DNA of 64,000 nt from Hexactinellida sp. DTS-2022 (taxonomy: Eukaryota > Porifera > Hexactinellida), in contig JAPNXP010000009.1 of NCBI GenBank assembly GCA_028753945.1, forward strand, positions 6,200,001 through 6,264,000. The letters run 5' to 3'. Below the pieces are notes generated by a model, which was not told the DNA's origin, did not search any database, and worked only from the letters and a program-made list of their open reading frames with translations. Made by a program: the position numbers and the translations under genes. Positions 7,609 through 63,300 of this stretch are shown here, piece after piece; positions within the stretch are counted from its first letter, which is position 1; every line of letters begins with the position of its first letter.

Positions 7609-10197
7609 ATGGCCAACAATGAGTCTGCTCCCAATAAATCAATTTACTCTCAATCGAACGAAGTTTATCCGAGGCATACTTCAGCCTCTCAAAGAGACCA
7701 AGAACCACAGAAACCTAAGCTACGACTAAAGCATGCCAGGAGAGCTAAATCTGTTCACAACACCCCCTACAGAAGAATCGAGTCTAACATTCAGAACTCT
7801 TACGTTGTCCAAATAGACTCTGAACCCAACGAGTCTATCAATCCTAGAGTAACATCCTTTCTCCACCCATCGACTCGATCTGTTCCGCAGATGTCCCCTG
7901 CGAGAACTGACGTTAGGTCAGAGCTCTCGAGCGAGTGGGTCGGTGAAAATTACGTTGTCATCAAAGATCGAATCGAACATGCTAAGTATGAGAACAACCA
8001 CAAATTCGGACTTGTGAAATGGAAGAGCCATCTAGCGACCCGCCCAATGGCCGAAAGATCGCCTCAGGTTCAAGCTCTCTACCATCCCACGCACCAAACC
8101 CCTAAGCATGTAAAGACTAACTCCTGCACCAGTGTGGGCAACGTGATTTACTGCTTGTTGTATGGCTGGTGGGTAGCCTGTATCTACCTATTAATTGGAA
8201 TATTAATGTTCACAACTATTTGTGGATATCGCTACGGAATATACTGCTTTAAGCTCTCCAAGTATTTCTTCTGGCCTTTCGGGAAGTTTATATACGTGCC
8301 TTCTACCAGATCTCCAACTCGCAATGAGGACTTCCAGTCTAATTATGAGAGCATTGAGCTTTCTCATTCTAGGGAGAAGGTACATTACGAAACCATTTCT
8401 AGAACAGCGAGGGAACAGAGACAGATGAACAAGGAAGATCCAATTTTGAATGGAGGGCTAACTCAGCCCGTTGTGACGCCGGATGATGATACCGCCCCCC
8501 TGATTAATAGCGGGATACATACAGCTGATACAGATGATATGAACTTTTCTAGTTTTAAGGAAACTTCATTGAAGAAACGCTTTCGTAAGTCTTGTAGAAT
8601 TCCCAACATTTGTAGATATCCTCTGTTTTGGCTGTGGGTGTTTATTGGCGTCCCCTTTCTCTTCCTGACTCATCTAATTGTATTTATTTTCACTTGGACA
8701 TTCGTTATTAGTATTCCCGTAGCGAAAATCCACAAAACTGCTATGTTTAAGCTGCTGTATCTTGACCCCAGGACAACTAAAATCGAGAATTCTGATTGGA
8801 TTTTGGAGAATTCGGAACATGATGTCGTCTTGTGTACATACCAGGCTTTCTCTCGTTACTATGTGAAGTACACTGTGGACGGGATGAATGTGATTATGTT
8901 CAACATGTTCTTTCTTGTGATAATCGCTCTCATTTTTAACTACACTGTTGACTATATGAACGGTATTAGCGCCCATGCAAAACATTGGATTAAATTCCTA
9001 ATTTCGGTTTTCGGTGTCATTCCACTCGCTTACTATATTGGAATGGCAATAGCCAGTATCTCCGCACAAAGCACGTATGCCGTAGGAGCTGTATTGAATG
9101 CTACATTCGGATCAATCGTAGAAATAACTCTGTACATTGCAACACTGGTGCATGGGAAAAAACAGGGTACATCTGAATGCACTCAGTCTATTGTTAGGAA
9201 CTCTCTCACTGGCTCACTGCTCCTGACTATGCTGCTGCTTCCAGGTCTCTGCATGATTGTTGGGGGCATAAAGTATCCAGAGCAAAACTTCAATGCTCGG
9301 TCAGCTGGAGTCAGCTCTACCCTACTATTTGTCTCCATTGTCGGAGCCTTCGCCCCTACATTATTTAACAAAGCGTTTGGGACATATACCTGCGATAGTT
9401 GCCAATGGATGTACCCAGTCAACTACACAAATCTGACCAACAGTACTCATATAGGATACGACACTAGGAGTTCTGAGTCTAATTACAGTGACCCATTATC
9501 TGCTACCAGTTTTCAGTGCCAAGCTTGCTCCTATCTCACCTCACAGTACAGTTTTGATAATGTCAAATACCTCGCCTATGTGTGCATGACCCTCTTACCT
9601 ATTGCTTATTTCGCAGGAATGATCTACAGTCTTAAAACACACGATCATATATATAAGAACGTACCCGAGAACCATGGGAAGGAATCATCTCCTCACTGGG
9701 GCAGACTTAAGAGCACATTCATTCTCGTATTAATGACTATACTGATGTCCCTACTAGCAGACACCATTGCTGAGAATGTGATGCATGTGTTGGGAAGTGT
9801 TGATTTCATTACTCCTGGTTTTCTCGGCGCTACTGTGTATGCCATTCTTCCGGATGTCCCCGAGCTGGTGACAGGTATCCAGTTTGCTCTACAGGGGATA
9901 ATATCATTGAGTATTGAGGTGGGAAACCAAATCGCAGTTCAGATCTGTTTGCTTCAAATCCCTGTTCTCTTGCTTGCACAGATTATTTACCCAGAACTTG
10001 GGTTTATCCTTCTGTTCAATGATCTCCAGTTGTTTTCAGTGTTTATAAGTGTACTTGTCATTAATTATATCTTCTCTGATTCGAAAACAGATTACTTCCA
10101 AGGAACATCGTTATTGATAATCTACCTTATCCTGCTCTCTGTGATATTTCTGGCTCCAGATTCTAGTAGCTCTACCTGCCTACCGGGTGATGATTGA
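7609..10197 (+). CDS. CAX/VNX1-type cation/H+ antiporter with long N-terminus
   Basis: Single exon of 862 residues. It is a secondary transporter of the Ca2+/cation antiporter superfamily (CAX branch), predicted to exchange Ca2+ or monovalent cations for protons across an acidic compartment or plasma membrane. The two alpha repeats are visible: GAVLNATFGSIVEITLYI near residue 495 and, near residue 740, LPDVPELVTGIQFALQG followed by SLSIEVGNQIAVQ. The second is VNX1-like rather than the plant CAX GNAAEH form. About 290 hydrophilic residues and an early hydrophobic pair (about 180-225) precede the core, as in fungal VNX1. This is much longer than a minimal CAX. A 3' splice-like TTTCTTTAG stands just before ATG 7609. 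Substrate specificity cannot be read from sequence. Confidence 0.82.
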   Translation: MANNESAPNKSIYSQSNEVYPRHTSASQRDQEPQKPKLRLKHARRAKSVHNTPYRRIESNIQNSYVVQIDSEPNESINPRVTSFLHPSTRSVPQMSPARTDVRSELSSEWVGENYVVIKDRIEHAKYENNHKFGLVKWKSHLATRPMAERSPQVQALYHPTHQTPKHVKTNSCTSVGNVIYCLLYGWWVACIYLLIGILMFTTICGYRYGIYCFKLSKYFFWPFGKFIYVPSTRSPTRNEDFQSNYESIELSHSREKVHYETISRTAREQRQMNKEDPILNGGLTQPVVTPDDDTAPLINSGIHTADTDDMNFSSFKETSLKKRFRKSCRIPNICRYPLFWLWVFIGVPFLFLTHLIVFIFTWTFVISIPVAKIHKTAMFKLLYLDPRTTKIENSDWILENSEHDVVLCTYQAFSRYYVKYTVDGMNVIMFNMFFLVIIALIFNYTVDYMNGISAHAKHWIKFLISVFGVIPLAYYIGMAIASISAQSTYAVGAVLNATFGSIVEITLYIATLVHGKKQGTSECTQSIVRNSLTGSLLLTMLLLPGLCMIVGGIKYPEQNFNARSAGVSSTLLFVSIVGAFAPTLFNKAFGTYTCDSCQWMYPVNYTNLTNSTHIGYDTRSSESNYSDPLSATSFQCQACSYLTSQYSFDNVKYLAYVCMTLLPIAYFAGMIYSLKTHDHIYKNVPENHGKESSPHWGRLKSTFILVLMTILMSLLADTIAENVMHVLGSVDFITPGFLGATVYAILPDVPELVTGIQFALQGIISLSIEVGNQIAVQICLLQIPVLLLAQIIYPELGFILLFNDLQLFSVFISVLVINYIFSDSKTDYFQGTSLLIIYLILLSVIFLAPDSSSSTCLPGDD

Positions 10198-15185: not shown

Positions 15186-15556
15186 TATTCTACAAATTAC
15201 TAAATTATTTCAATTCGTAGGAATGACTTAATTTAAACTGTATTAACCAACTTAATTCGCAGAAAACATATTTACACTGTTCCATCTGTGTTTTTTGATT
15301 AATCAATGCAACGAGGTATGGAGAGGTTACGTAAATGCAATTTATTTCCCAAAATCTAGTATAACGTTGTGTCTGGCGCCAAAAAATAATATATGTTTAT
15401 ACAATTATATTGATAAGCTTCTGCAAATATTTTCAGTTTAATTAATCTTTCTTTTATACAATTTGAATCTTTCATAATTGTAACAATGTCTTATAAAACC
15501 AAATTATTAGTTTTCTTATTGCAATAGATTAGATATAGGTATTCTTAACAGACAGA
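15186..15556. other. Intergenic spacer, nothing recognised
   Basis: About 370 bp of AT-rich DNA before the E2/U-box chimera. No supported element. Confidence 0.45.
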
Positions 15557-18500
15557 ATGGCATCGAAACCGAATGAAATTAGAAAACTATTAGAAGAAAT
15601 TGGTCTTTTAAAAGTGGAGGGAAAGTTTGCTGATCTTGGAATCGAAGAGGTGAGCGACATGCAGTACCTCCAGCAGGAGGACTGGGACTCACTGGGTTTG
15701 ACTAAAATCGAACAAAACAAGCTTAGATCCCTGTTTACAAAGGACGACACCGACACGGCTCCTGAAATATCAGTTGTATCCAAGGTAGCCTCGGGTGAAG
15801 GAATCATCCATTATATAATATACAGCAAGCTGGTGCCAAAACAAGGCCAGGTTAAACTGAATCTAGATGATACGTCATTCGATGGGCTTGTCAATGCGAT
15901 CACAGTGCAAGAGCAGCTACCTGATGGCGTCACAGTGGAGCTGTACGCCCCACAAGGATACCCACTTGCTCCCGATTCGTTTGCATACCAAAAGTCACTT
16001 CGATATTGGAAGTTGGAGCATGGATGTCTCGTGCTGGCAATCCCACGGAAGAATCTTATGATGTCTGAGTCAGGTCTCCCCAGCCTGGATCCCACCATTG
16101 GGGCCACACAGATATTCATCAAGCACAACAAGACTAGCGTTATCCGAGTTGATGTCGATAAGGACAATGGCAAGACTCTGAGACAGAAAATATTCCACAA
16201 GACTGATATTCCAACTCCCTGTATAAAGCTTAGTTATGGCGGTGCTTTAGTTCGTCATAGCGACGCTAAACTCTCTTCCTACAACATTCAGGAGAACTGC
16301 ACTATACAGATGTGGACCTACGGCGTAGCATGGACCGGTTCATGGAGGAACAACTTCACAAACAAATCCTGTCTTCCTCTCATCGAACAAACTGAGGATG
16401 CTCTCACCTGTTTTAATTCGGCTCTCTACTGCGTTGCAATGAAATTATGCAAATCAAAGCAAGAGGACATTAATAAGGTGCTGGGTCACATTAGGCGGTT
16501 AGTGAGGTGCCCTCCTCTCATCGACTCACTCAACAAACTGTTTAAAAACGAGGCACTTCTATTCCCACATAAAGTTGCTATTCAAGAAATGCTCTACCTT
16601 CTCTTTAAACAGCTGTTAACCTCCACTAATGGTTTGCCTAGCGATGTATCTATTGAAGATAAAGACGTGTTTACCAGCTCTCCTTCTCTCTTCTCTTATC
16701 TTATCTCAGAATCTAAGAGCACTGACAAAGATACTGAAAATTTCAAAGAATTCGATTTGATCTGTTCCCTCTCCAATCTCCGAGTGGAAGATCCCGTTAT
16801 CATCCCTGGTTCTAACTTGCCGTTCGACAGAGAATCTGTTCTGGATAAGATTCGGGACGAAGAGCCAATTCCTGGTTGCATCATGGATTCGCTCACTGAG
16901 GAAGATTTGCATCCGGACCTAGTTCGCAAGAACTTATTGCTATCATTCACCTCCGACTCTGCTTATGTATGGCAAGGAAAATGCACCAGTGGAGATCTAA
17001 CCGACAGCTTCGAAATTCCAAAGGTCACATGCAGTTGGTCAGAGCTTACAAACAAGCGTAAGACCCTCAAGTACCTCGAAATACTGAAACCTCTCGAGCT
17101 AAAATCCCACTCGAGCACTCCTTATGTTCTCACTCTTAACTCCACCAAGAGTGTCGTGGTGTACGTGGAGCGAGAGGCGTGTGCTGCCACCAGTCGCGAT
17201 TACGTGCTTTTCAACCCACAGCTGGGGTCCACTGAGAGCATTGACCCAGACGAGCTGGCTCGTCTGCTGTATGGAACCGTCGCCAGCACTCAGCGCTCAA
17301 CTGGAGGCTCTACTTCAGAAGAACGCATCGATCTGTCGACTATAAAACTGCAAGACCCAGTCGTCACGCGGAGGCCCGAGGAAGCTATTATTGTGCTAAT
17401 TGACATTAGCGGGTCAATGAGCACAAATTGGGACAGTGGCGTGTCTCGTCTCAATGCTGTGAAACAGCTGTTCCACGCGTTCGCTAACCGGACAATGGCA
17501 TACAACCTGTTCCACGTGGTGGGTCTCACTGTATTCGCGAGTCAGCTCACGTGCGTTTCCAAGGTAACCGAGCTGTTCGAGGAGTTCAAGGAGTACGTTG
17601 ACGCTCTCTACACTCGCGACACGACGGCTCTCTATGACGCGATTAACGACGGTGTCACTCAGCTGGTGGAGTTCACCACGACCCATCCTAATATCGTAGG
17701 GGAAGGTGGCGCCCCCCCTGTGGCGGCTCCTGAGGCGGCTACTGGGGCCTCTGGCGAGGGAGAGGGTCTTCTCTCTCGAATATTTCGAATGGGTTCTTCA
17801 GCTAAACAACCTGTGAAGCCCGCGCCCGCCGCCACTTCTGGAGCGACGCGGGACCCGGATGTAGCTCCCGTCAGAAGACGCATTATATGTCTCACCGACG
17901 GACACGACAACGCTTCCAAGCAGCGCCCGCTCGAAGTTATCAACCGCTGTCTCCGAGAAGAAATTGTAGTAGATTCGTTCATAATCGGGGACGGAAATGA
18001 GAATATGAAAGCTATCTCCCACGCCACGGGCGGCTGCAGCTTCCTGCCCAATGACATCGCGTCTGCTTTCCGGCTGTTCGAGATGGAGGGAGTGCTCAGT
18101 CTCTCTCGCCGCGACATCAGTCCTGCCAGCTGCCCCATGCTGGATGCTAAGTTTACAATCCTCAAGGAAGGGAACTACGACCACGAGCCAGAAACACAGA
18201 TGCCGTCTGAGATGAAGAAGAAAGTTATTTCAGCCAAGGCTTGCCTTGCTAAACAAGCATCAAAGGAACCGAGTAGCAGCAACATAGGTCGCGCTTCTAA
18301 GCGCATAATGGCTGATCTAGCGAAGCTGCAGAAAGACCCACATCCCAGCATCGAGATATACCCCTCGGAGGACGACATTTCGTTCTGGCGACTCTTGGTA
18401 ACCGGCCCTGAGTTCACACCCTACGAGAACTGTGTATTCCTTCTCTACGTTAAGTTTCCTGATACTTTCCCGATGACTCCGCCTGAAGTGCGGTTTGTAA

Positions 18501-19036
18501 CTCCCATATACCATTGCAACATAAACCAGAGTGGGCGCATCTGCCATAGTGTATTCGGTAGGAACTATTCCAGTGACTTGAGCATGCGCGAGATTATGGA
18601 CTGCATGTACGGCCTGTTACTTGAGCCAGAGCCCAACGACCCCCTGGACAGCAACATGGCAGAGCAGTACTTCTCAGAGAGAGAAACTTATAACGAGAAA
18701 GCCAAGCGGATGGCAGAGCAGCACGCCAAGAAGAGCATAGCCGATTGGAGGAAGGAGTTGTTGGGAGCAGTTGTTACTGACTCAGAAATCGGACAAGTCC
18801 CCAAAGAGCTCATCTGTCCGCTCTGCAGTGAGATGTTCACAGACCCTGTCAAAACTCCGTTTGGAGACACCTATGAGCGAATGGCGATCGAGAATCATTT
18901 GGATACGATAGAGAAGGACCCGAAAACTGGACAGCCTCTGAAAAAAGTGGATCTTATCGAAGATTTGGAAATTAAAGAAAAGATTAGGCGTCACCAGGAG
19001 GCGAATATCGTGCCCAAGGGATGGTGGGACAAGTAA
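15557..19036 (+). CDS. SAM-Ubl-U-box-vWA-E2(UBC)-U-box chimeric ubiquitin protein
   Basis: One uninterrupted exon of 1159 residues. Domains read from sequence: a SAM-like helical domain at ~1-62 (FADLGIEEVSDMQYLQQEDW; LGLTKIEQNKLRSLF); a ubiquitin-like fold at ~184-256; a degenerate U-box at ~400-462 (DPVIIPGSNLPFDRESVLDKI, then SLTEEDLHPDLVRKNLL); and a vWA domain at ~609-851 with MIDAS DISGSMS and ICLTDGHDN, interrupted by a Gly/Ala/Pro-rich insert at ~714-770. An E2 core follows at ~911-1060, with catalytic-type Cys at about 996 in GRICHSVF and the usual HPN replaced by HCN. A canonical U-box closes the protein at ~1081-1155 (LICPLCSEMFTDPV). It thus carries E2 and two E3-type modules in one chain, with vWA and SAM as likely substrate or assembly modules. 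Activity and targets are inference. A possible poly(A) signal is at 19141. Confidence 0.9.
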   Translation: MASKPNEIRKLLEEIGLLKVEGKFADLGIEEVSDMQYLQQEDWDSLGLTKIEQNKLRSLFTKDDTDTAPEISVVSKVASGEGIIHYIIYSKLVPKQGQVKLNLDDTSFDGLVNAITVQEQLPDGVTVELYAPQGYPLAPDSFAYQKSLRYWKLEHGCLVLAIPRKNLMMSESGLPSLDPTIGATQIFIKHNKTSVIRVDVDKDNGKTLRQKIFHKTDIPTPCIKLSYGGALVRHSDAKLSSYNIQENCTIQMWTYGVAWTGSWRNNFTNKSCLPLIEQTEDALTCFNSALYCVAMKLCKSKQEDINKVLGHIRRLVRCPPLIDSLNKLFKNEALLFPHKVAIQEMLYLLFKQLLTSTNGLPSDVSIEDKDVFTSSPSLFSYLISESKSTDKDTENFKEFDLICSLSNLRVEDPVIIPGSNLPFDRESVLDKIRDEEPIPGCIMDSLTEEDLHPDLVRKNLLLSFTSDSAYVWQGKCTSGDLTDSFEIPKVTCSWSELTNKRKTLKYLEILKPLELKSHSSTPYVLTLNSTKSVVVYVEREACAATSRDYVLFNPQLGSTESIDPDELARLLYGTVASTQRSTGGSTSEERIDLSTIKLQDPVVTRRPEEAIIVLIDISGSMSTNWDSGVSRLNAVKQLFHAFANRTMAYNLFHVVGLTVFASQLTCVSKVTELFEEFKEYVDALYTRDTTALYDAINDGVTQLVEFTTTHPNIVGEGGAPPVAAPEAATGASGEGEGLLSRIFRMGSSAKQPVKPAPAATSGATRDPDVAPVRRRIICLTDGHDNASKQRPLEVINRCLREEIVVDSFIIGDGNENMKAISHATGGCSFLPNDIASAFRLFEMEGVLSLSRRDISPASCPMLDAKFTILKEGNYDHEPETQMPSEMKKKVISAKACLAKQASKEPSSSNIGRASKRIMADLAKLQKDPHPSIEIYPSEDDISFWRLLVTGPEFTPYENCVFLLYVKFPDTFPMTPPEVRFVTPIYHCNINQSGRICHSVFGRNYSSDLSMREIMDCMYGLLLEPEPNDPLDSNMAEQYFSERETYNEKAKRMAEQHAKKSIADWRKELLGAVVTDSEIGQVPKELICPLCSEMFTDPVKTPFGDTYERMAIENHLDTIEKDPKTGQPLKKVDLIEDLEIKEKIRRHQEANIVPKGWWDK

Positions 19037-19140: not shown

Positions 19141-19146
19141 AATAAA
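19141..19146 (+). terminator. Possible poly(A) signal of the E2/U-box chimera
   Basis: AATAAA, 105 bp after the TAA stop of the chimera gene. Confidence 0.5.
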
Positions 19147-19352: not shown

Positions 19353-22300
19353 ATGTTTACCAGATTTTCTGTTTGGGCTACTCTCATCTGCTCCACAGCC
19401 TTCATTATAGGTAACGTTAATTCAAAAATATTAATATTAAGATCTTTTATTTATCGGCTAACACATTTTCAATAAAATCCCTGCTTCGCAAAGGTGAATT
19501 TTAATATTTAAATGAAAATACATCAGGAAAAGGTATTGGCCGCTAATAATTATTCCTAAATAAATCGATGAATTTATTGATAGGTTGGACTTGGTTTCGT
19601 TCAAGAAGACGCGCTTCTAAGCAGATCGACAATTCTGTCCCTCCCTCTGAGCCCCCTGACCCTACTCCCCCTTCAGAGGAGGTGCGAGCAAAGCCTGAGT
19701 TGTACGTCGATAATACCAGTGCTACAACACAGCATCTGCAGCATGAAGGGATGGACGTGTACGTGATATCTAGCCTGGCTGAGTGCGAAGAAATCCTATC
19801 CAGCATTCCCAGGAGCAACCTGTCTCTGTTGGGGTTCGACTGTGAATGGTCTCAGCGCTACCATTTGGACGAAATAATGCCTGCTTTCATTTACCCAGTT
19901 GCTTTAGTGCAAATAGCTACTATTGATTCCAGATGTTACTTGATTAGACTGTCTGAGATGGATAACCAAATTCCTCAATCACTTATCGATATAATACAGG
20001 ATGAAAAGTAGTTAACTCATGACTCACTAATATCATTGAATTTATTTTACGTATATAATTATTCCTAGGTGTCTTAAATTCGGTGTCGGATCACTTAATG
20101 ACTTGAATCGTTTGAAGAACCATTATTTCATACACCCGAGAGGCTCTGTGGACCTGAGGCACCTGGCACACAACAGAATGTTAAGGTAATCGTAATCCTA
20201 ATTTGTTGTGACTGAAACATAATATTTGCATAATTTAGAACAAATTTGTAATTTTTCCTCATTTCTGTATGTACATATTTGAAATAATGTTGGTGCATTA
20301 ATCATAGTGAAACCAGAACACTATACATACTGCCTACGTTAATTTTATAATTTATATTGCTGTTGGCTGCCCATTGGAGTTATCAAAATGGATTTAAAAG
20401 CGTTTCGTTATTTTATATTTCTTGTTTTCCTCTTCAATGCCGTATCCTCTCAGAAGGAGGATATTTACATCGCCGGCATCTATCCGGCTACTGGTGGTTG
20501 GTCTGCTCCTAATATTCCTATTTCCGTGCGTCTTGCTCTCGAGCACATCAACAATAACAACATCCTGCCTGGGTATGAACTAAAGATAGACCTTGAGAAC
20601 AGTCAATGCAAGAATACGATTGGACTCAGTAAGCTGTTCCACTTTATTCAGAATACCAATCACACGTACGTGTCGCTATTCGGAGACGGTTGTTCCGTGG
20701 TCACAGGTGCTGTGGCTGAGATTAGCCACTTGTATGGCCTCGTGGCTGTTGCATTCGCCTCCACTTCTCCTTCCCTCGCGAATACTGACAGATACCCCAC
20801 GCTGATTCGCAGCCGTCCCTCTGACTCCAGTACGATACCCGCTAGACTGCACCTTATAACGGAGCACAAGTGGAGACGGATAGCGATCATAAACCAGCAG
20901 GAAGACCTCTTTGTATCCACGAGCCACGAGCTGCAGAAACTGCTCAACAAGGATAGCGTGCATTACCGTGTGGAGATAATTGATCCGAAGGGACCAGACC
21001 TTCTTCTGCAGCTCCAGGCGGCACTGGCGCTGATAGAGAAGGAAGGCTATCGCATTATAGTCGCCAACATGTACCAGAATGTAGCTGTGAAATTGCTGTG
21101 TGTTATGAAGTCTTCGGGCTTACGCCCCCCTCTCGTCACGTGGATATTTCCAGGTTGGTACACGGACGGTTGGTTCGAAACTCCCATTGAACTGGACAAT
21201 ATAACTTGTACGCCAGATGATATAAAGAAGATATCCAATGGGGCGCTTGCTTTCTACGCAGGGCCGAGGTTCATGGATTTCCACTCGGACAAAAGCACGA
21301 CTGTATCTGGATATACAGCTGAGGAGCTTTTCATTATGTACACCGAAAAGGTTGAGAAAGAATCCAATGTTTCGCCTAACCCAACTTTCATGGAAACTGC
21401 ATACGCATACGACTCTATGTGGATGATCGCACTTGGACTGAACAAGACTGGTATTGAACACGACCTCACTAACCACCCTCTTGTATTCGCTAAGGATTTA
21501 TATACGAATATTACAGCCCTTGAGTTTAGGGGGTGGAGCGGTGAGATTTCATTTCTCGGACACCAGAGGGTGGAAAGGAGAGTCCAGCTGCTGGAGTTTG
21601 TTAATGGGAAACTCGAATATCGGTGTCTCTACGATAATGTCCCTATCCATGAATCTGAGTATAGCAATACGGGTACAATTACATATGAGACTCTCTATCC
21701 CTTTAAAGTGTGGAATCCTGAAAAGGCTTCTGATGGAATCGAAGTTTATTACATTCATATTGTGATTATAGCTGTGGTCTTTCTCTTGGCCGTTATATCT
21801 TCTATTTACGTAAGTATATTGATTGTGTTGATCCTGGTTGGCATAGCTAAGAAGCTGAAGGTGGTAACCACTTCTCAGCCATGGATAACTGTTATGATTT
21901 CGGTATTCATTTTGGCTGTTCTCTTCGTGGTTGATGGTCGTATCCTGGGCATCGGCGATAAACAGAACTATCAGGCTTGTTACTTGGTCTGCCACTTGCG
22001 GATCTGGCTGGGGAGTGTGTGGGTGAGTACCACATTCGGTGGCATTCTGGTGAAGTCTCTCAGATACTATATCATTGCTATAAAGAAGCGATTTGAATAC
22101 AAACGCGAATTAAGCACGAAAATCTTGCTGACATTCCCTTTATTTCTCGTTATGATCGACACAGTATTTGTATTGATTCTGAGGGTTGTTCAGCCTGTCA
22201 CATTTATGCTCAAAGAGGTCCCATCGGGAAGAATAAGTCCGCCTATTTACCAGATAAGTGAATGTGCAACAGAAATGGGAGACGGATACATTCCCATTCT

Positions 22301-25300
22301 GATTGTCCTGGTTGTGTTCAAGGCCTTGCTAATCCTTCTGAGTGTAATCATGGCTTATAATATAAGGAATATAATTAAAAAGAACCAACGTTTCTCTGCG
22401 ATAATCTCCTGGGTCTCTTACAACGGGACTGTGTTTGTAATAACTGTATGTCTCATTTATTCCTTCGTAACTGACGTTAACGCTAAATATGTTCTCTGCG
22501 CGGCCGCTATTCTGCTTGGCGGAGTTATCACTGCCTCTGTAGTAGCAGCACCCACGCTGCACTACATGCGAACCGACCCGAATGATACCAATGGTGTTCT
22601 TGCTGGGGCGACTGATTCATTTCCGGAAAATACAGATTCATTGCAGATGCGTATCCAGGCTCTGGAGAGGGACAAGAACGCTCTGGAAATGAGACTAACG
22701 AAGAGACTAAGCAAGTCGTATTCCAACTGTCACAAGGAGCATGATGCTCTATTTAATGAAACAATCCTTGATCAATCATTATGAATACTTCTTGTCTCCC
22801 TCCCCCTTCTTTTGAATTGAACTAATTCTTTATTATTTGTATACTTATATATTCACTATGTTCTAGTTATGTTGTTTGTTAATTTTAATTCCTATTTTAT
22901 GTGTTTTATTTTTTAGTCAACGAATCGGTTTACAGGGTCTAAGCAAGTATTTTCTTGGGATTGATTTGAACAAAGATGAGCTCTTACAATGCAGTAATTG
23001 GCAATGTCCCAACCTCTCAATCGAGCAGGTATAATTACTTCTTCAGAGTAACAAATAGCAATTAATTGACTGTATATAGATAATGTACGCTTCAATGGAT
23101 GCTAAAGTATCTCTCAGTATTCTTCTGTCGATTCTACGAATCATTTGCAGAGAGCGTTCCATCCCAGAAGCAATACACTATTATGGCCTCGGCGCACCTT
23201 CAGGTCTTATTGATCTGATATTCGACATTTGCGATCCATTCATTGATGTTCCTTTCGCGGGCCAGCGCAGCAAGCCTCTCCAGCTGGCACCCAATTACAC
23301 TGGTAGTAACCACTCTGTTAGGACCAGAAATATAAATAGGAATAGGAACAGTAGAATGGGATTACCATTGAAAGTTAAACACAGTATTAACATGATCACT
23401 TAAAACACCGTACAAGCTTTGCACTTACGCTCCTCACTTGCATTAATGTTATAAATTGGTTTTCAAATGTATATACGTATCTAGGTTGTTATTACTTATA
23501 TTATATGTGTCTTCTGCCATAGTTCGTATAATTATATGAATCATAGCTGTTCTATCAGATAGCATAGCTTAAACGAATGGCTACATCTACCAGTTCACTC
23601 CTACCATTAGAACTGATTGACAAATGCATTGGCTCTAAGATACATATACTTTTGAAGAACGACAAAGAGATTGTAGGAACGCTGCTCGGGTTTGATGACT
23701 TCGTTAATATGGTGCTAGAAGATGTGACGGAGTATGAGATGACGTCAGAGGGGAGACGTATCACAATGTTGGAACAGATTCTGCTTAACGGCAATAGCAT
23801 AACGATGATGATACCTGGAGGAGAGGGGCCTTCTGTTCAAAGCTAGGTTTATGTTACAGCACTAGTTCCGTTCTGATATTTGTTCTAATATAACTTGAAT
23901 TTATTCTCTATTTCAATTGCTAAAATTATTGAGAACAAATGCATTAGTATTCATTAGCATTTAAGTTTCTTGTCTCGTACAATGTCTGAGCTCCTTGAGT
24001 CTACCGCTAGTGACCTACATTCGTATCTGCTGCAGCCTATAACTTACCTGTACCAGCTGAATGGCAGTCTGGAGAGACGTGTCGTTGGAGAGTTGGAGAA
24101 GCATTAACTGCCAAAAGATAAAATAGAAATATAGCCAGTAACATTGCAACGGTTGATCCCGCATTCAATAGAGAGTTGCAGAAGGCAATGGAAAATAAGT
24201 TCGTAAACAATAACGTTTGCGGAATTGAGGAAAAAATTAACGAATTCTGCGCTAAAACTGAGCTAGAAAGGAAATCTCATCTCCTGAGCTCTCTAAAGAG
24301 CTGGAACAAAGAATTAACTGAATATTGTGATAAAATTAAAGAAAAAATCAGAATCGACCACAAAGCATCTGTTGATATTTATGAATCAGTGAAAAACCAT
24401 CCAAGTTTCAAGTGACTTTACTATTTATTCTATTTCCTTTATCCAATTACAAACATCTGGTGACTATTAATAAACTTCATTTAATTCGTTAATTGAGCGA
24501 GCGTTTGGACCAAAATAAGAAATATCATATAATGCTATGGAAATACTAATAAAACGGATAGTTTGCAATAGAGTAACATAATTTATAAGTCTACAACTTA
24601 GGATCGAAGAAACCTAACTCGGCCTTTGTTACCCGTAAGAGAGCCTTATATGAAAACTGTCGTTTGTTGGCTCCAGATAACGAGCTCCTGTCTCTAATCG
24701 ATAGAAGAAAAGCGAATTGGTACTTTGAGAGAGATCTAGCTGGTTAGTTACCATAAAGTGTATTGAAATTTATTTATAATCAATCTTGTTGTATAGAGCT
24801 AGTAAGCGAGGAACCCTATGTGGTGAGGTTAAAGTTTGAGCCAAAAACCCGCCCTGAAAAGGGAAATCTTGACAAACAATACTACCAAGCTGAGAAACAA
24901 AATATATGCGTTGTTTGCGGTTCAAAAGATGGCAATGGAATTAGAAAAAAGATTGTACCTTCTGAATACAGAAAGTAAGTTTAATAATGATAGTATAATT
25001 TGTTGTTAATAATATTTTAATATTCTAAACACGAGGACAGTTCTTTTCAATTTGTTTCTGAGCTTTAGGCGACCATAGCTTTAGTATTTCGGCGGGTCCA
25101 TTTCTCCACAGATTAAACATGAATGTTGGCTCCAGGTTTTCTACCGCATGCACCCATCCCCTGGGGAGATAGAGCACCTCTCCTGCACGCAAGGTTACCT
25201 GGATTGGGTTTGCATTCTCGAAGAGCGGAAATTTTGTTTTATCAGGAGTACCCAAGGTCCCTAGGGCACTACTCCATTCCAATGAACCCTTCATGTTGAC

Positions 25301-33950: not shown

Positions 33951-34439
33951 CTCACACATGCTCATCACAATGCAATCAGTACTAACAGGAACAAGGAAAC
34001 CATAATATGAATTAAGAGATTGAATGTGTATTGTATCGGGGAATTTGGGGTATCCCTCCCTCCCACCACCCCTGTAATGAGATATATTCAGGTTGATGTA
34101 ATCTCATTAATTAATGGACCAATGGTTATTCGAATGCGGACATATGATCTCAATATACATAGTGGTGAGGTTTTATTGGTTTGTCGAACAATAGGAGCTC
34201 TAGTTAGTTATTTACAAATGAATTGCATCAGCTAAGTGTTGTTATTTTATTTCTATTCGCATTGTTTTTGTGTTGTTGGATTTACTAGTTAATAATGTCA
34301 GTTAAAGTATGTACTATAGAATCATGTTGAATATTTAAGATACAAATCACAGGCGTCGCACGGCTCTGAAAAATCTCTGGCCAAACAATCTCTGGCCAAA
34401 CAGTTAAAGTGGTCCGGCCAAAACCGGACCGTCCGATAT

Positions 34440-34630
34440 AATAATAAATAACTAAAGTAAATACATAAATAATATATAATTAAAATAACTAACTAACTAG
34501 TAACTACCATAATTAAATTAATACTAACTAACTATTAACTAACTAACTAACTAACATAATTAAATTAATAATTAACAAACTAACTAACATAATTAAATTA
34601 ATACTAACTAACTAAATAAATAACCAAATT

Positions 34631-34663
<33 letters not shown>

Positions 34664-34680
34664 ATACATAATTAAACATT
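34440..34680. repeat. AACT/TAAC-rich microsatellite region
   Basis: Interrupted (TAAC)n runs mixed with AATTAAATTAAT. Further blocks of the same type are at about 35375-35485 and 35660-35740. Confidence 0.8.
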
Positions 34681-35005
34681 TACAATTACTTACTGTTGGA
34701 GCATTACACGTAAGGTGTGTAGAACCAAGAGAAGCCAATAGTTGTCCAAATGGAAACAATACAACAAATCTTATAGTAAATATGTGTACAATTGGAACAA
34801 AAGTATATTTAACTACTTAATTCACATGGCTAGCAATTAATCCCTTATCCCACTAATAAATTCGCCCCATGCTATCACATTAGTGGACCAATGGTTATTT
34901 GTATGTGGACTTAATATGTCAATATAGTGGTGAGGTATACCCAATTTGGTATACTCTATTATAGGCAGATCATTAACATATTGTATGTAATTAAATAAAT
35001 AAATC
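34620..35005. repeat. Tandem segmental duplication, copy A
   Basis: About 380 bp, nearly identical to 35690-36080. It includes CATTACACGTAAGGTGTGTA, GAACCAAGAGAAGCCAATAG and GGTATACTCTATTATAGGC. A more diverged piece (GGACCAATGGTTATTCGAATG) is at about 34113-34170. Confidence 0.85.
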
Positions 35006-35486
35006 AAGCAATCAAATTAATTATTAAACTTAATTTAATAAATACAGTCAGGTTCTTCAATTATGAACATTCAAGGGAACAAAAATTGTCTTGTCTTATG
35101 TTATTTATATTTATTAGAAGTTTGAATTAACAGTTGCAATTCATTTGTTTATTGTTTACTAATTGCTCTATTGATTGATCAGGTCATTCGGAGTATTATT
35201 AATAATTAATTACAATTGAATTGCATCAGTTAAGTGTGTTGTTATTTTATTTGTATTCGCATTGTTTTTTTGATAGTTATTATAATGTCATTTAAAGTTA
35301 AATGCCCTCAGATTAAGTTGAATGTTTAAGATGCAAATTGAAACAATAATTATATAATTAAAGTAAATATTAATTAAAATAACTAACTAACTAACTAACT
35401 AACTAAAATAATTAGATTAATAACTAACTAACTAACTAGCTAAACAAAAATAATTAAATTAATAACTAACTAACTAACTAAAATAA

Positions 35487-35657
35487 TTAAATTAAGAATT
35501 TACTTATCCACTGATCATCGGCGTTTGTATTAAAAGACCTCGATACTTTCTACCGATGGTGTTTTTTTTATGAACATAAAAAAACAATCGGTAGAAAGTA
35601 TCGAGGTCTTTTAATACAAACGCCGATGATCAGTGGATAAGTAAATTCTTAATTTAA
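35487..35657. repeat. Long inverted repeat, 71-bp perfect arms
   Basis: Arms 35487-35557 and 35587-35657 are perfect reverse complements (starting TTAAATTAAGAATTTACTTA). The 29-bp spacer is itself largely self-complementary (TGTTTTTTTT...AAAAAAACA). It sits within TAAC microsatellite DNA. A transcript would form a near-continuous duplex hairpin. Confidence 0.93.
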
Positions 35658-35689
35658 TACCTAACTAACTATTAACCAACTAATAACTA

Positions 35690-36080
35690 ACTAAATTACT
35701 AATTAACTAACTAACTAACTAACTAACTAAATACATAATTAAACATTACAATTACTTACTGTTGAAGCATATCATTACACGTAAGGTGTGTAGAACCAAG
35801 AGAAGCCAATAGTTGTCCAAATGGAAACAATACAACAAATCTTATAGTAAATATGTGTACAATTGGAACAAAAAGTATATTTAACTACTTAATTCACATG
35901 GCTAGCAATTAATCCCTTATCCCACTAATAAATTCGCCCCATGTTATCACATTAGTGGACCAATGGTTATTTGTATGTGGACTTAATATGTCAATATAGT
36001 GAGCGAGGTATACCCAATTTGGTATACTCTATTATAGGCAGATCATTAACATATTTGTATGGTATTAAATAAATACATCA
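35690..36080. repeat. Tandem segmental duplication, copy B
   Basis: Second copy of the block at 34620-35005, about 1.07 kb downstream in the same orientation. Small indels separate the copies. Confidence 0.85.
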
Positions 36081-36134
36081 ACAAATGAATTATAATTAAT
36101 TAATTACATAATGTTATATTAATTTATAAAATAT

Positions 36135-36800
36135 TCTTATTATTTGTATTTATTAAAAGTTGGAATTAACAGTTTCAATGTTGTTGTATTGTTGTTATTT
36201 ACTTATAGATGTGTGTATTATTATAAGAGGAGTACAGTTGCAATTCATTTGTTTATTGTTTACTAATATCTCTATTAGTTGGTCAGACCAATAAAGTATT
36301 AATAAAGATATAAGCTATCACAAATAAATTGCATCAGTTAGGTGTTGTTGTATTGTTGTTATTTACTTAAGAGTAAGAGGAGTACAGTTGCAATTCATTT
36401 GTTTATTGTTTACTAATATCTCTATTAGTTGGTCAGACCAATAAAGTATTAATAAAGATATATACTATCACAAATAAATTGCATCAGTTAGGTGTTGTTG
36501 TATTGTTGTTATTTACTTATAGATGTGTGTATTATTATAAGAGGAGTACAGTTGCAATTCATTTGTTTATTGTTTACTAATATCTCTATTAGTTGGTCAG
36601 ACCAATAAAGTATTAATAAAGATATAAGCTATCACAAATAAATTGCATCAGTTAGGTGTTGTTATATTGTTGTTATTTACTTAAGAGTAAGAGGAGTACA
36701 GTTGCAATTCATTTGTTTATTGTTTACTAATATCTCTATTAGTTGGTCAGACCAATAAAGTATTAATAAAGATATAAACTATCACAATTGAATTGCATCA
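36135..36800. repeat. Tandem array with alternating 150/164-bp spacing
   Basis: The landmark GAGGAGTACAGTTGCAATTC recurs at 36227, 36377, 36541 and 36691 (spacings 150, 164, 150). Long units contain TATAGATGTGTGTATTATTA, which short units lack. The array therefore has a two-unit higher-order period of 314 bp. Confidence 0.9.
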
Positions 36801-38080
36801 GTTAAATAAGTGTTGATGTATTTATTTGTATTCGCATTATTATTGTGTTGTATATTATTAAATTAAATACAAGGTATATTATTAAATTATAATACGTGAA
36901 TTGAATGTACAATTACTTACTATATTGATCAAAAAGAAATATCTCCAAGGTTTTTCCATAGTAACAATAGAAGCAAATAATTTGTCCCCAAAGAAAGAGA
37001 AATGGTTTAGTTGAGTGGAGTAGTGTGCGTTATAATAGAAGCAAACAATTTGTCTCAAAAGCGAAGGAAGAGTCTAGAATAGAAATATATTAAGTTTAAG
37101 TGAACTAAAATGTAACTAAAATGATTTAAATATAATTCGAATTTCAGAGATTTCGTTGCACAAAAGACTTCTTATTTAAATTATTTAATTTATTTAAATA
37201 AATACAATAATTACTTACCAAATAATGTCAATAAATATCTCCATAGTTGTCTCAAAAGTTAGTGAAATGGTTCTCATAAACATCAAGTGAAATAAGTAAT
37301 AATTTTATTGTAATTTAACTCTTTTCTATTTATATAAATTACCTTCTATAGAGTAAACACCTGCACACACTTGTTTATAATGCTCGTATCATTTAAATTC
37401 CAATCCTTTCAATTCAAACACGTTACCTTCATTAATATTTATAAATTATTCCTTTCAAGTATACTTGCATAATTTGCTCCTCTATAAACTGATACCATAG
37501 TGTACTTTGAATGTACTATGCAAATATAATTCGAGATTCATATCACGAGTATTTACAGCTAGTATTACAGATAACAAACAATTTTTAATCCACTAGGGGT
37601 GCAGTTTATGGTCCATAATATTCGTAAATATATCTCGTGTTCTTGCGATAATATTATGTTTATAATTAAGTTAAATTTATTAAATTCAATTTCTATTCAT
37701 TACTTTAAACATTTCAATGTACCTTAGTAACATGAATGGAATTTCAACTTGTGTTAATTTTATCAAATATAATCTCTTAGATTACAATTAAATCTCTCAA
37801 TAAGGACACCGTTTAATCGCAAACATTCCCTAATAACCAGAGTTGTAACATTCCTTAATTTAACATTCCTTAGTTGTTCATTGAACATTAGATGGCGCTA
37901 TTATTATTTAAATATTTCTTACAAATTGATTTTTAAAGCGGGGGGTTATTATTGAATTTATAGCGCGTTAAATTTAATATAAAAGACTTCTTTGTAGTTA
38001 TAACTAAGAATTATTCTTAATTTTATTAGAATTGAGAGGACTAAAGCTAATCAGGGAATCGGTGTTAGTGACAAATAACG
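36801..38080. other. AT-rich gene-free DNA
   Basis: No open frame or repeat family that I can define apart from AT-rich sequence. I see no RNA gene. Confidence 0.4.
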
Positions 38081-45112: not shown

Positions 45113-47654
45113 GGGATACAGACTTTTCGTGACAAGACTTTTCGTGACGAGACATTTCGTGACGGACTTTTCGTGACAGGGACTTTTCGTGACAAGACTT
45201 TTCGTGACAGGGACTTTTCGTGACAAGACTTTTCGTGACAGGGACTTTTCGTGACAAGACTTTTCGTGACAGGGACTTTTCGTGACAATACTTTTCGTGA
45301 CAAGATGGGTACTCTTTACACATGGATATCCATGTAATAATTTAATATTCTACATGGCCGTATCAAGTTCATGAAAACACTTCCGGCCATCATCAGTATA
45401 GCTGCCCTTCAACAATATAATTAACATTGTTTAATATATAACTGTTCCGGCAATTTCCGGACCGCAGATCTCTTGCTACGGCCCTGTTCTATAATTGTTG
45501 TGGTTAATGAATCAAGCTTATATAACAAGAGATGTAAGACAAAGTCATGATGATTTTATTGTGAACATAAAATATAAGTGATATTATTTGTAAATATTTC
45601 TAACCCTTGCTAAAAGAAATATAAATAATTATCCCTACGTAAGGAACTCTTCAATCATGAAAAGTAAAATGATAGGAAACTCCCCTTAAGAACTCAAACT
45701 TTGGCCGCAGTAAATAGCTCTCAACTAAATTTTCTAACGCTTTTTCTCTATCTTCAAAATTTCTGCGTTTCGATGGATTGCGCCCACTTATATAAAACGC
45801 CTGTTTTACTTCAACCAACCCCTGTTCTCTCTTAAGTATGGTTAGAAAACGCCATACAGAAGGATGGTGACAAGACATGTGACAAGCAAATGAGCGGTGC
45901 CATGCCTCAACTGCATTATTTGTCCTTGGTAACCCATGCTAAACCATGAAGTGGTTGTTCCACATTTCCATTGGAAATAATGGTGATGACAAAAGGGGGG
46001 AATTAGCGATATGTCTACCAATATAAGTCGCTTCAAAGTATAGTGCCAGATCGTAAGCTTCCACAGGTAGTTGCAAGAAAAGGTTGTTGAAAAGTTCGGG
46101 TATGTCAGTAGGAGTTGCAAACGCGAGTGCAGGTAGCATTCGCACTTTTATTGCAAATTCGACATCTTGCTTGTATCTTGCTGCTAGTCCAAAATGTTGA
46201 ACTTTACGCCAGACATTTTGGCATAGGTGAAAAAAACAGCCCTGAACCTTTGTAGTTGGGAAGTATTGTGAAAATGCATTAATCGAGGCAATTTCAAAAT
46301 CCACAATTAGATGTGTCGGGCAAGCGGTTGGACATAAATCAAGTACTTTATTCCACTTGTTTGAATATGTTTGCTGGGTCTTGTTCGGTAGCAATATGTA
46401 TAAACTTGGAAAAATATGACCGGTGAAAATCAAATCAGGACCTCCTTTCAAAGCATGTATCACGTAGAGTTGATAAAACAAGCTAGGCACTGTTTTAAAG
46501 GTGCCATCAGCTAGCCAAACAGTTGCAGATGAGAGTAACTCCACATTAGCCTGAGTTCCGAAGATTACAATCCTCTGATTTCCACTTTCCGCACCAGAAT
46601 CGTAGAGCAAAAATTGTTGGTCCTTTTTTGTTTTAGTATAGCTTTGTGGTATAGAGAGATGATGTAGTGATAATGGTTCAGGCGGAACATTCTCGGCTTT
46701 TCTTCTGCTTCTCACTATAGTTCTCTTCAGGCTATTGATTTTGGGTAGATGAACAGCAGATTGATCATTCAATTCGCTAATAGAAGCTGTCATGATTGAA
46801 TGCGTTGCTTCCTGACTTTCAGAAGCTTTGCGTTTCATTCCAGCTTTAGCCTGACTGTTGAAAAATATATGAGGATTACACTCATGAGAATGTATATTCT
46901 TTCTGGCTATTACTTCATTTCCCCTTGTGTGCAACCTTGCTTTGCAGTAATCTCTCTGAACACACTGCCATTGTGTAACATCTCCGGTAACACGGTGTTT
47001 AGAATAAGAAAAATCGCCTTCTAACATCATCAATCCACCCTTAGATGTTTCACAGAACGCTAGTTCAGTAAGTGTAGGATTACCTATGTAACTATCTAAC
47101 TCATCGTAATCTTCGTCGTCCACAGATTCGCATGAAAGTGAAACAGTAGGTGTAGAGTGATCTGGCGAAAATGGATCCGATAAATTGACGATTTCGTCAT
47201 CTTCAGGGGAAACTGAAAACACTGACAATGGACCTGGAGGTAAATCATATGTGTCACTAGAACCATAGTCTGTTAATGTTGAGTGCATTGGATTGTAATG
47301 TACAGGGTCGTTCTCTGGCGAATTGTTACCAGTAGGCGGGCATTTAGTATAACTCATAACGAATACTCTTACGTTAACGAATAAATAATATATTTAACGA
47401 TATACACCATAAATATTTGAACTCCCTACTTATAGAAAATTGTAAGCTTGATTCAGTAACCCCACGATTATAAAATTATTACATGTATCCATGTGTAAAG
47501 AGTACCCATCTTGTCACGAAAAGTCTTGTCACGAAAAGTCCCTGTCACGAAAAGTCTTGTCACGAAAAGTCCCTGTCACGAAAAGTCGTGTCACGAAAAG
47601 TCCGTCACGAAATGTCTCGTCACGAAAAGTCTTGTCACGAAAAGTCTGTATTCC
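45113..47654. mobile_element. Mutator-like (MULE) DNA transposon, 2542 bp, 9-bp target duplication
   Basis: Terminal inverted repeats start GGGATACAGACTTTTCGTGAC on the left and (reverse complement) GGAATACAGACTTTTCGTGAC on the right. They consist mostly of tandem GACTTTTCGTGACAA/GG units: 12 on the left (45113-45305) and 9 on the right (47511-47654). A shared inner block (GATGGGTACTCTTTACACATGG) extends them to about 45343 and 47472. The element is flanked by a perfect 9-bp duplication, ATTTGTAAA, at 45104-45112 and 47655-47663, as expected for MULEs. It encodes one transposase on the minus strand, broken by a single in-frame stop. The low divergence of the ends suggests recent insertion. 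Confidence 0.95.
45651..47357 (-). pseudogene. MULE transposase with FLYWCH zinc finger, one in-frame stop
   Basis: The minus-strand frame runs from ATG 47357 to a TAG at 45939-45941 (472 residues), then continues open in the same frame for another 95 codons to TGA/TAA at 45651. N-terminal FLYWCH-type zinc finger at ~90-165 (QWQCVQRDYC ... HSHECNPH). The MULE catalytic core includes first Asp in VWLADGTFKTV and second Asp in THLIVDFEIASINAF. The expected late Glu motif (NNAVEAWHRSF) lies just after the TAG, between WNNHFMV and HGLPRTN. The stop therefore removes the probable third catalytic residue, so the protein should be inactive unless the stop is read through. The rest of the frame is intact. 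Confidence 0.9.
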
Positions 47655-60304: not shown

Positions 60305-63300
60305 ATGAGTTTTACATCAATTCACAGAATTATGAAAGGATTTAATTCTTTCGGTCAAAATTCTAATGGTATGAGTAGAAAACGACACAACATCGGTGAC
60401 CCCAGGTAGAATATAATACTATTTTTATTCAAATATATTTTTGCAAGACATCTGTGTATGCAAAAATTAGGCTTCTAGAGATATTTTTGCTAATGCCATT
60501 TTCTTTTTACAGCAATGAACCCAGTATTAGATCATCACTACATATTTTCTTTATTTCTTTTTGACTATGTTTGACTTCATCGATTTAGAAAACGCCTTAT
60601 CAAGATTAATGCTGTGTATGATGGTGATCTAATTCGAATTGAATAATTAGTTTGTAGTTGACCAGAAATGCCACTAAATACAGAGTCGTGAATTCTTTCC
60701 CCATGCGTAAATATCAAAAATATTCATTTGAACTGATAAAGGGTTAGGACAAGATAAACCGAACTAATTGACTCTACAATCAACCAATCTGTGATAATAT
60801 TCATTGCATATTTTCTTCAAAAGTAATTATTTCTTATACGCAAACTACAAATTTTATTTATTCGAATTTAATTAATTGATCTCCCGTTTAGTGCAACAAT
60901 CAATCTATATTTCCCTAACGGAGATGTTTTTGAAGAGAAATGTTACATGAAGGAGCCTATAGCGCAGCAGCTAACTAGAATACTCAACGATCTAAGGGTA
61001 ACTACATTTCTACATTAGATATGTTTCTATTAATTATTCATTTATTCAATAGCGACAAGGTTCAACTTTCATGAAAAAGAAGTATCACTATCATGCATTG
61101 CACCCAGTCGACCTACTGATACTCGATGAGGTAATATCCTATATTGGTTCATATGTCATGTTATTCATTAAATGATTTGTTTTTCTTGGTTACAGGATCA
61201 CAAGTTTATCCCTAACGATAGACCACCTGGTAATTGGCCTTCAATCGTGAAATGTATTATGCAAGAGAGGAAACCTCTTCTCTATGTATGGAGCTTCAAA
61301 TTTTCTGAGAAGGATAAAGTTTCTTTCCCAGATGTGGCCCACATGACAGAGCGCAAGTTCTTTGCTCAGAAAAAGTCAGATCCAGTTGATAAACAAGAAA
61401 TACAATCGCATAATTTGCCACTTGTTTCGAGAGCAAACTCTCTTTCCGATATAGGATCTCGGAAGGTGCCCTTACAATTTGATGACTCACAAAGGTACAT
61501 CCTTACTGTACTATATAGTAATTAAACTGATCACTAATACTTGATTTGCTACCAAACGAAGAGGGCTTTGGTTTAGAGATGTTAGGGATTGACAACATTG
61601 AAACAAATGTGTTCAGTAAAGACTTAAAACACAAATTTGTTCATGCTTAGCTTCAACTGTATTTGATCTCCTATAAGGTGAACTCTCATAAGAAATCTAC
61701 ACTTATTTATAAAACTATACAATTTAATGGACTTGTTCTTAATCATCATGTGTTAAACTCCGTACATCTTCTTTGTATTCCCTCTTGTAGTATGAAGAAC
61801 TTCATTCAGTGGCACTTGTTTAATTTTAGCAATTTTTTCTGCCACATGCAGCACCATAATTGGATGAGAGAATCTAATTTTCTCCTTTAGCTCTATAGGA
61901 ACCATGTAAGGCGCATCTGTCTCTAACAACAAGTGCTCCAGTGGAACTAAACTCGTAGTTTCTCTAACTTGTGATAACTTCTTGACTGTAATGCTTCCAG
62001 TGATACCGATGTACATGTTAGGGAATGTGGCTATTAGCTCAACAGCTGTTGCGGCCGGTCCAGTGTAACAGTGTAAGTGGATCCGCCACTCCTTCGGCAG
62101 CTCTGCTAGCAGAATGTCCGTCAGTTCGTCTTCTGCCTGTCTACAGTGGATCTGCACTGGCTTGTTGTACTGCAGAGCTAGCTGTAGCTGATCTTTAAGA
62201 ACTCGTATCTGTGTTTCTCGGTCGCTAGGACTCACCTGTGAGAAATCTAGCCCGATCTCCCCTAGAGCCACGCACTTGGGGTGCATTAGAGCCTCGCACA
62301 GCTTGGCTTTCAGTGTTTCTGTGTAGTACTTGGAGTTGTGAGGGTGAATGCCAAACGTAGCCCACACCTTGTCATCTTTGAGAATCTGTTCGAAAGCCCC
62401 TAAAGATGAGAATGCTGTCGGATCACAGAAGGTACTGATACACCCATCGAATCCGCTAGGATACTGGTTAGCGAGCATAAACTCTTTAAAAACTGACTCA
62501 GTGATTATAAGGTGATGTCTCTCGAACACGTACTCCAAATGACAATGCGTGTCTATGTAGTGTGTATCTTCTTTGATTAGATATGACAAATCTAGTAAAG
62601 ACTGAAGATAGTATGTTTGTGCTTTTTCTGCTTCTTTCCCTTTACCAGAAATATGTACTGTACTAATCAAATGACCTTTGCCTGCTTCTTGTAGAGATTC
62701 TTGTTCTGCGAATTTGACTGGACAGTTCATCTGCACGTGACCCTCATCTTGACAGTAATAACACTTGACAGTTCTCTTACCGCTGGTTACTTTCGACCTT
62801 ACAGTGGAAGGGCAGTTTCTCTTGGTGTGGCCTGTCTCTCTGCATGCGTAGCATACGATGCCTTTTTGGGATTTGCCGCTATATTTCCATTCTTCTTTAT
62901 TCGAGTCATCTCCACCTTCAGCCATGAATTAACTTTACTAATCTTATTTCTAATTAATAGAATATTATATCAATGCTCTATACATATTAGTTCTTGTACC
63001 ATGGCTGAATGAATGGTTTAGTAGTTTTGTAATTCTCTCTAAATTTATTGATTTTATATTTCAGTACACCGAAAGCAAAGCCTCGACTTCGCAGCAACCC
63101 ATTAATCAACTCAACTTCACAGCTACTGAACAATGCCCCACCCATCCCGCCCAAAACAAAGTGTTCTAGCATGACTTGTATCGACGAACAGATCAGTTCG
63201 GGCAGACAGGATGACTCATTCAGTTTACCCTCTGCTATTGACAAGGACTCCATCGCTTCAGATATACAACAGTTAAGTATCAAGAGAAATACAATGGTGG

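Follow-up and report, generated by a model that had tools for sequence, protein, structure and literature searches.

The window analysed here comprises 64,000 nucleotides of a glass sponge genome (Hexactinellida sp. DTS-2022, contig JAPNXP010000009.1, positions 6,200,001 to 6,264,000) and carries a gene whose product contains both a ubiquitin-conjugating (E2) domain and a U-box of the ubiquitin ligase (E3) type. The presence of these two domains in one protein, together with SAM, ubiquitin-like and vWA modules, was confirmed by a Pfam scan of the 1159-amino-acid chain, in which SAM_TNK, ubiquitin, VWA, UQ_con and U-box all exceeded their own cut-offs, SAM_TNK only just (25.1 versus 25 bits). 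The initial annotation, made from the DNA letters alone, had listed these domains within a single uninterrupted frame of 1159 codons, and both the inventory, as checked with hidden Markov models, and the frame with its ATG were borne out (Table 1). An in-frame TAG (15536-15538) lies 21 bases 5' of the ATG and an AATAAA (19141-19146) about 105 bases 3' of the stop codon, both read by eye. The Oopsacas genome report gives 1.59 introns per gene (PMC10280926), so that an uninterrupted single-frame gene is not odd in a glass sponge.

Three protein searches yielded 196 distinct relatives. They represent a sample, as one listing holds the best 120 of 263 matches and two of the searches scored only candidates sharing most words; truncated gene models may be among them, and transcriptome entries may be contaminated. 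Module profiles were built from an alignment of 58 rows (the window protein and 57 relatives), and since these 57 are among the 196 that were scored, the following counts are partly given by construction. The E2 and vWA profiles match all 196 relatives, those of the helical domain and of the inner U-box 189 each, that of the C-terminal U-box 184, and those of the second and first ubiquitin-like domains 176 and 175, respectively. The 144 matches of the SAM-position profile are an upper figure, because this profile also takes N-termini that Pfam does not call SAM, e.g., residues 1-71 of Blepharisma P0176. By order, a U-box follows the E2 in 183/196 relatives (182 if the overlap is limited to 10 residues). 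At least 162 (131 + 23 + 8) keep the full succession of two ubiquitin-like domains, helical domain, inner U-box, vWA, E2 and C-terminal U-box, 131 of them, again an upper figure, with one SAM-position match in front.

A U-box behind the E2 was found in Oopsacas minuta, Oscarella lobularis, Saccoglossus kowalevskii, Lampetra planeri, many teleosts, the ciliate Blepharisma stoltei and Trimastix. Judged from these sequence comparisons, the proteins constitute an old and widespread eukaryotic family of animals and protists that is already represented in databases, and the glass sponge gene adds one more member to a known family that has apparently hardly been studied. The rarity that the initial annotation had implied for a chain with E2 and U-box did not hold in view of the 183 relatives, of the seven modules shared in order across animals and protists, and of three fish records already named bifunctional E2/E3 enzymes. 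In a tree built from the vWA-E2-U-box region of the 58 rows and rooted at the midpoint solely for display, the window protein joins P0001-P0007, and this cluster lies next to the Oopsacas group (99/98), away from Oscarella and the fishes, a placement that points to a glass sponge. The deep branches are long and their order is unreliable. Three pattern scans of viral contigs, which can miss distant relatives, gave no confirmed viral relative by sequence. A scan of genome contigs returned one short E2-like stretch of 50% identity (L001 2514-2615, on a 6.4-kb contig labelled as a Paenibacillaceae metagenome-assembled genome), which we guess to be eukaryotic contamination. Two fish copies (P0075 and P0152) possess an extra N-terminal RING (Pfam zf-C3HC4 types), so that a single chain unites a RING, the inner U-box, the E2 and the U-box behind it, and 8/196 relatives of the same architecture class show a U-box profile match at the N-terminus.

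Table 1. Features of the E2-U-box gene in the window (pLDDT, predicted local distance difference test; rows refer to the 58-row alignment)
Feature	Position	Strand	Basis
Whole coding frame, 1159 amino acids	15557..19036	+	ATG start, one uninterrupted frame; conserved along its length in relatives
SAM-like five-helix domain, residues 7-61	15575..15739	+	Pfam SAM_TNK 9-61 and five modelled helices
First beta-grasp (ubiquitin-like) domain, probable, residues 81-165	15797..16051	+	Modelled strand-strand-helix-strand pattern and weak profile match
Second ubiquitin-like domain, residues 184-254	16106..16318	+	Pfam ubiquitin 186-252, E=1.1e-7; predicted model
Helical domain, residues 263-393	16343..16735	+	Model, pLDDT mostly 87-96
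Degenerate inner U-box, residues 397-466	16745..16954	+	hhalign to C-terminal U-box; Pfam 0.033; CHIP 0.026
vWA domain, residues 606-852	17372..18112	+	Pfam VWA 611-704
Metal ion-dependent adhesion site (MIDAS) DISGS, residues 616-620	17402..17416	+	Conserved positions in the 58-row alignment
E2 (UBC) fold, residues 911-1058	18287..18730	+	Pfam UQ_con 916-1051, E=1e-35
HCN motif His986-Cys987-Asn988, in the place of HPN	18512..18520	+	HCN in 56/58 rows
Catalytic-type Cys996, followed by invariant His997	18542..18544	+	Both 58/58
Linker of 22 residues from E2 to U-box, partly helical	18731..18796	+	Model, no residue below pLDDT 50
C-terminal U-box, residues 1081-1149	18797..19003	+	Pfam U-box, E=5.4e-18

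The HPN tripeptide is usual in E2s but not defining. In the window protein, the UBC fold with its active-site cysteine and the asparagine of the motif are present; the tripeptide as such is absent, with His and Asn retained. Across the alignment, His986, Asn988, Cys996 and His997 are invariant, and position 987 is Cys in 56 rows, Thr in one and Pro in one. HCN occurs in 190 of the 194 relatives that could be parsed (two of the 196 could not), a count obtained with a search pattern that itself requires the cysteine; the fungus Lyophyllum atratum (P0196) has HPN and CV in place of HCN and CH. Asp1028, matched by hand to what we take to be Asp117 of UBE2D, is kept in 57 rows. In the resulting HCN...CH arrangement, the catalytic cysteine is followed by an invariant histidine and preceded, at a distance of nine residues, by a near-invariant second cysteine that usual E2s are not known to possess. 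The catalytic-type cysteine had been placed correctly at about residue 996 by the initial annotation. The idea of HCN as an oddity of this gene has to be abandoned, as the alignment identifies the motif as a signature of the family that is not peculiar to the glass sponge. The conservation supports catalytic chemistry, and a thioester would form at Cys996.

The C-terminal U-box scored 65.4 bits against a Pfam cut-off of 21.4, and its sequence matches in the PDB include LubX, plant U-box protein 12, CHIP, UBE4B and UFD2. Structure prediction, which had been proposed as a check from the outset, gave a well-ordered E2 and U-box piece: modelled alone, residues 880-1159 reached a pLDDT of 94.1 and a predicted template modelling score (pTM) of 0.86. 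Because this piece folds alone and its linker is ordered, the model suggests that E2 and U-box form one rigid unit. The top Foldseek match of the full model and of the E2 and U-box model alike was 8v0d, an engineered UbcH5B-RING chain in which the RING follows the E2; VIA-align covered only the E2 of this structure. In the 8v0d crystal, the RING presumably may act on a neighbouring chain. Sequence matches include the engineered RING-UBE2D3 chains 7jzv, 4r8p and 8uq8, with the opposite domain order.

The vWA domain exceeded the VWA cut-off with 25.9 versus 23.8 bits and fell just under that of VWA_2 (26.2 versus 27); in the predicted model it is interrupted by a disordered insert (residues 714-768, 17696-17860, forward strand). 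Its MIDAS is intact, as had been read from the frame, with Asp616, Ser618, Ser620 and Asp781 each conserved in 58/58 rows and Thr690 in 57. In the N-terminal half, the ubiquitin-like fold of the initial annotation was recovered by Pfam, but not as a single one, since a second beta-grasp domain probably precedes it. The presence of two tandem folds is based on the AlphaFold2 secondary structure and on a weak profile-profile match between the two regions (probability 53, E=1.3e-4); Pfam gave no match for residues 81-165. The helical domain had neither a Pfam match nor a PDB sequence match, region 465-607 had no Pfam match, and the chains listed by fold searches with the full-length model were all of the vWA or E2 kind.

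The additional degenerate U-box that had been suspected at about residues 400-462 remained under the Pfam cut-off (E=0.033, 14.8 versus 21.4 bits), and its best solved relative, CHIP, reached only E=0.026. The family profile of residues 395-470, aligned with that of the C-terminal U-box by hhalign, gave a probability of 98 (E=2.7e-13, 25% identity); among six other module pairs, five had probabilities below 1 and the two ubiquitin-like regions the value of 53 mentioned above. In P0189, a U-box over the Pfam cut-off is placed ahead of the vWA (residues 606-675), with none after the E2 and a RING-H2 at the N-terminus. On the strength of the profile alignment and of this U-box ahead of the vWA, the inner U-box is a real one, and the E3 module seems to have been moved or lost in parts of the family.

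Cooperation of E2 and U-box within one chain is plausible from the conserved pairing of the two domains. We consider it about 60% probable that the protein is a self-contained E2-E3 ligase. The ubiquitin-activating enzyme (E1) would load ubiquitin onto Cys996 of the UBE2D/Ubc13-like E2, and the C-terminal U-box, attached by its short ordered linker, would stimulate discharge to a lysine, acting in cis on the E2 beside it or in trans on that of a neighbouring chain, in an oligomer that may be built by the SAM domain. Substrate selection or retention could fall to the vWA, to both ubiquitin-like domains and to the part comprising the helical domain and inner U-box; the inner U-box would be a scaffold or dimer piece and not an active E3. 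Points in favour are the invariant active-site residues with Asp1028, the U-box directly behind the E2 in 183/196 relatives, Leu or Ile at the hydrophobic U-box position 1089 in 51/58 rows, the confident prediction of the E2 and U-box piece with its linker, and 8v0d as the top fold match.

Several observations weigh against such a self-contained ligase. The E3-contact loop of the E2, which we take to be Ser-Pro-Ala in UBE2D, is not kept: position 1006, presumably the counterpart of Pro95, is Pro in 9/58 rows, Ser in 21 and Ala in 21, and position 1007 is Asp in 32. Position 973, which we equate with Phe62 of UBE2D, is variable, with Phe in 6/58 rows, and Pro1127 in the second loop of the U-box is retained in only 34/58. 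According to Foldseek, both domains align on 8v0d at a root-mean-square deviation (rmsd) of about 13, and therefore the predicted placement of the U-box differs from that of the RING within the 8v0d chain. Finally, 12/196 relatives lack a match to the C-terminal U-box and P0189 has one only ahead of the vWA; therefore, the E2 may act without a U-box.

A possible, though doubtful, alternative is that E2 and U-box are joined but serve other partners: the U-box would recruit a free UBE2D/Ubc13-type E2, the fused E2 would serve a separate E3 or act independently of any E3, and the fusion itself would be a scaffold. The loss of the canonical contact residues from the E2 would fit this arrangement, as would the U-box hydrophobic contact at position 1089, retained as Leu or Ile in 51/58 rows, and the 12 relatives with vWA and E2 but no C-terminal U-box match, which include both Amphimedon queenslandica records (P0191 and P0192) and Lyophyllum atratum and may partly be truncated models. 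What such independent partners would not lead one to expect is the adjacency of E2 and U-box in 183/196 relatives and the prediction of the two-domain piece as one ordered unit (pTM 0.86). Starting instead from the self-contained ligase, a more far-reaching version, which we hold to be unlikely, is that the E2 gave up the generic contact loop and thereby answers to its own U-box alone, that the fixed HCN...CH confers a redox-controlled or otherwise altered transfer, and that this overlooked class of ligase is older than the animals.

It is rather improbable that the C-terminal U-box serves to cap the E2, structurally or as an inhibitor, in a chain with little ligase activity, leaving vWA and SAM as the working half of the protein. 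The inner U-box, which has decayed below the Pfam cut-off, speaks for such a cap, but the C-terminal U-box lies 44 bits above that cut-off, and the catalytic residues are invariant in animals and protists. The idea of two adjacent genes, or of a fusion created by the assembly, was rejected with next to no residual weight, as nothing was found in its favour and a single open frame as well as the vWA-E2-U-box order in 183/196 other records speak against it.

E2s and their RING or U-box E3 partners are normally weakly bound and exchangeable. With a natural chain of animals and protists in which E2 and U-box are permanently paired, the stimulation of a particular E2 by an E3 could readily be studied, and the nearly fixed second cysteine in its active site adds to the interest of the family E2. 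Most fish records among the matches listed are labelled 'uncharacterized' or 'hypothetical', with two per species in several cases, e.g., P0055 and P0080 of Thunnus thynnus; once the enzyme had been studied biochemically, many such records could be named.

The gene is followed on the same strand by a single frame resembling a class C receptor, with a ligand-binding region and 7tm_3 (20388-22784), and preceded by an 862-amino-acid frame (7609-10197, forward strand) in which a YccF domain, named in Pfam as an inner membrane component, is combined with a sodium/calcium exchanger domain. On the reverse strand, a MULE transposase with a FLYWCH zinc finger represents a trace of a DNA transposon (45939-47357), and zinc knuckles are followed by a TatD DNase domain in one frame (61753-62925). 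The GC content falls to 0.25-0.28 in positions 34001-38000, compared with 0.39 and 0.35 in the flanking 2-kb windows.

With respect to known systems, three fish records among the matches listed are already entered as 'bifunctional E2/E3 enzyme R795(-like)', i.e., P0152 of Solea senegalensis, P0155 of Scophthalmus maximus and P0158 of Liparis tanakae. The name R795 presumably derives from a Mimivirus gene. Like the window protein, all three have, in the same order, two ubiquitin-like domains, helical domain, inner U-box, vWA, E2 and U-box as well as HCN...CH, and two of them SAM; P0152 differs by its N-terminal RING, and P0155 begins within the first ubiquitin-like region and ends within the U-box. 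The window protein is assigned to this R795-like family by vWA, E2 and U-box in order in one chain and by similarity over the full chain; the comparison was made with the fish records, and the tree includes other fish members than the three so named. A search of titles and abstract beginnings, with subscription papers and most preprints outside its scope, listed no study of this enzyme among its matches. The immune-defence table in the available part of a study on nematode infection of eels contains a 'probable bifunctional e2 e3 enzyme r795' with a value of 0.18, which we read as a fold change (PMC5560681). The E2-U-box fusion is mentioned neither in the accessible portion of Grau-Bove 2014 (PMC4327156) nor in that of a giant-virus study (PMC11915834).

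A close counterpart is LOD99_14356 of Oopsacas minuta (P0009), which has the same eight-module order and 44% identity over the chain and belongs to the sister group in the tree; it is hypothetical according to NCBI and a protein-tyrosine kinase according to UniRef, yet no kinase is among its listed Pfam domains. A0A1V0SEK3 of Hokovirus HKV1 (1329 amino acids, recorded as an E2 ubiquitin-conjugating enzyme) gave a fold match along the whole model, spanning 1418 alignment columns (E=1.5e-39), with 15% identity and a poor global superposition (rmsd 26, template modelling score 0.39 of the query). On this comparison by fold only, the family apparently has a member in a giant virus.

As far as the consulted part of Marin 2010 goes, Mb_UBOXa of Monosiga (XM_001744651.1), with relatives in Naegleria, Trimastix and Spironucleus, has vWA and U-box in one protein, and genes of this type are called lost in early animal evolution (PMC3087547). 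Compared by description, it shares these two domains and the occurrence in Trimastix with the window family, differs in that no E2 is mentioned there, and may be a relative. If Mb_UBOXa, so far as described, belongs to the same family, the claimed loss is contradicted by sponges, a hemichordate, a lamprey and fishes.

BIRC6 and UBE2O likewise are hybrids that combine the functions of E2 and E3 within a single chain. BIRC6 has a BIR domain, for which the Pfam scan of the window protein gave no match at E-values of 1 or below. The E3 part of the glass sponge protein, in distinction from both hybrids, is a U-box.

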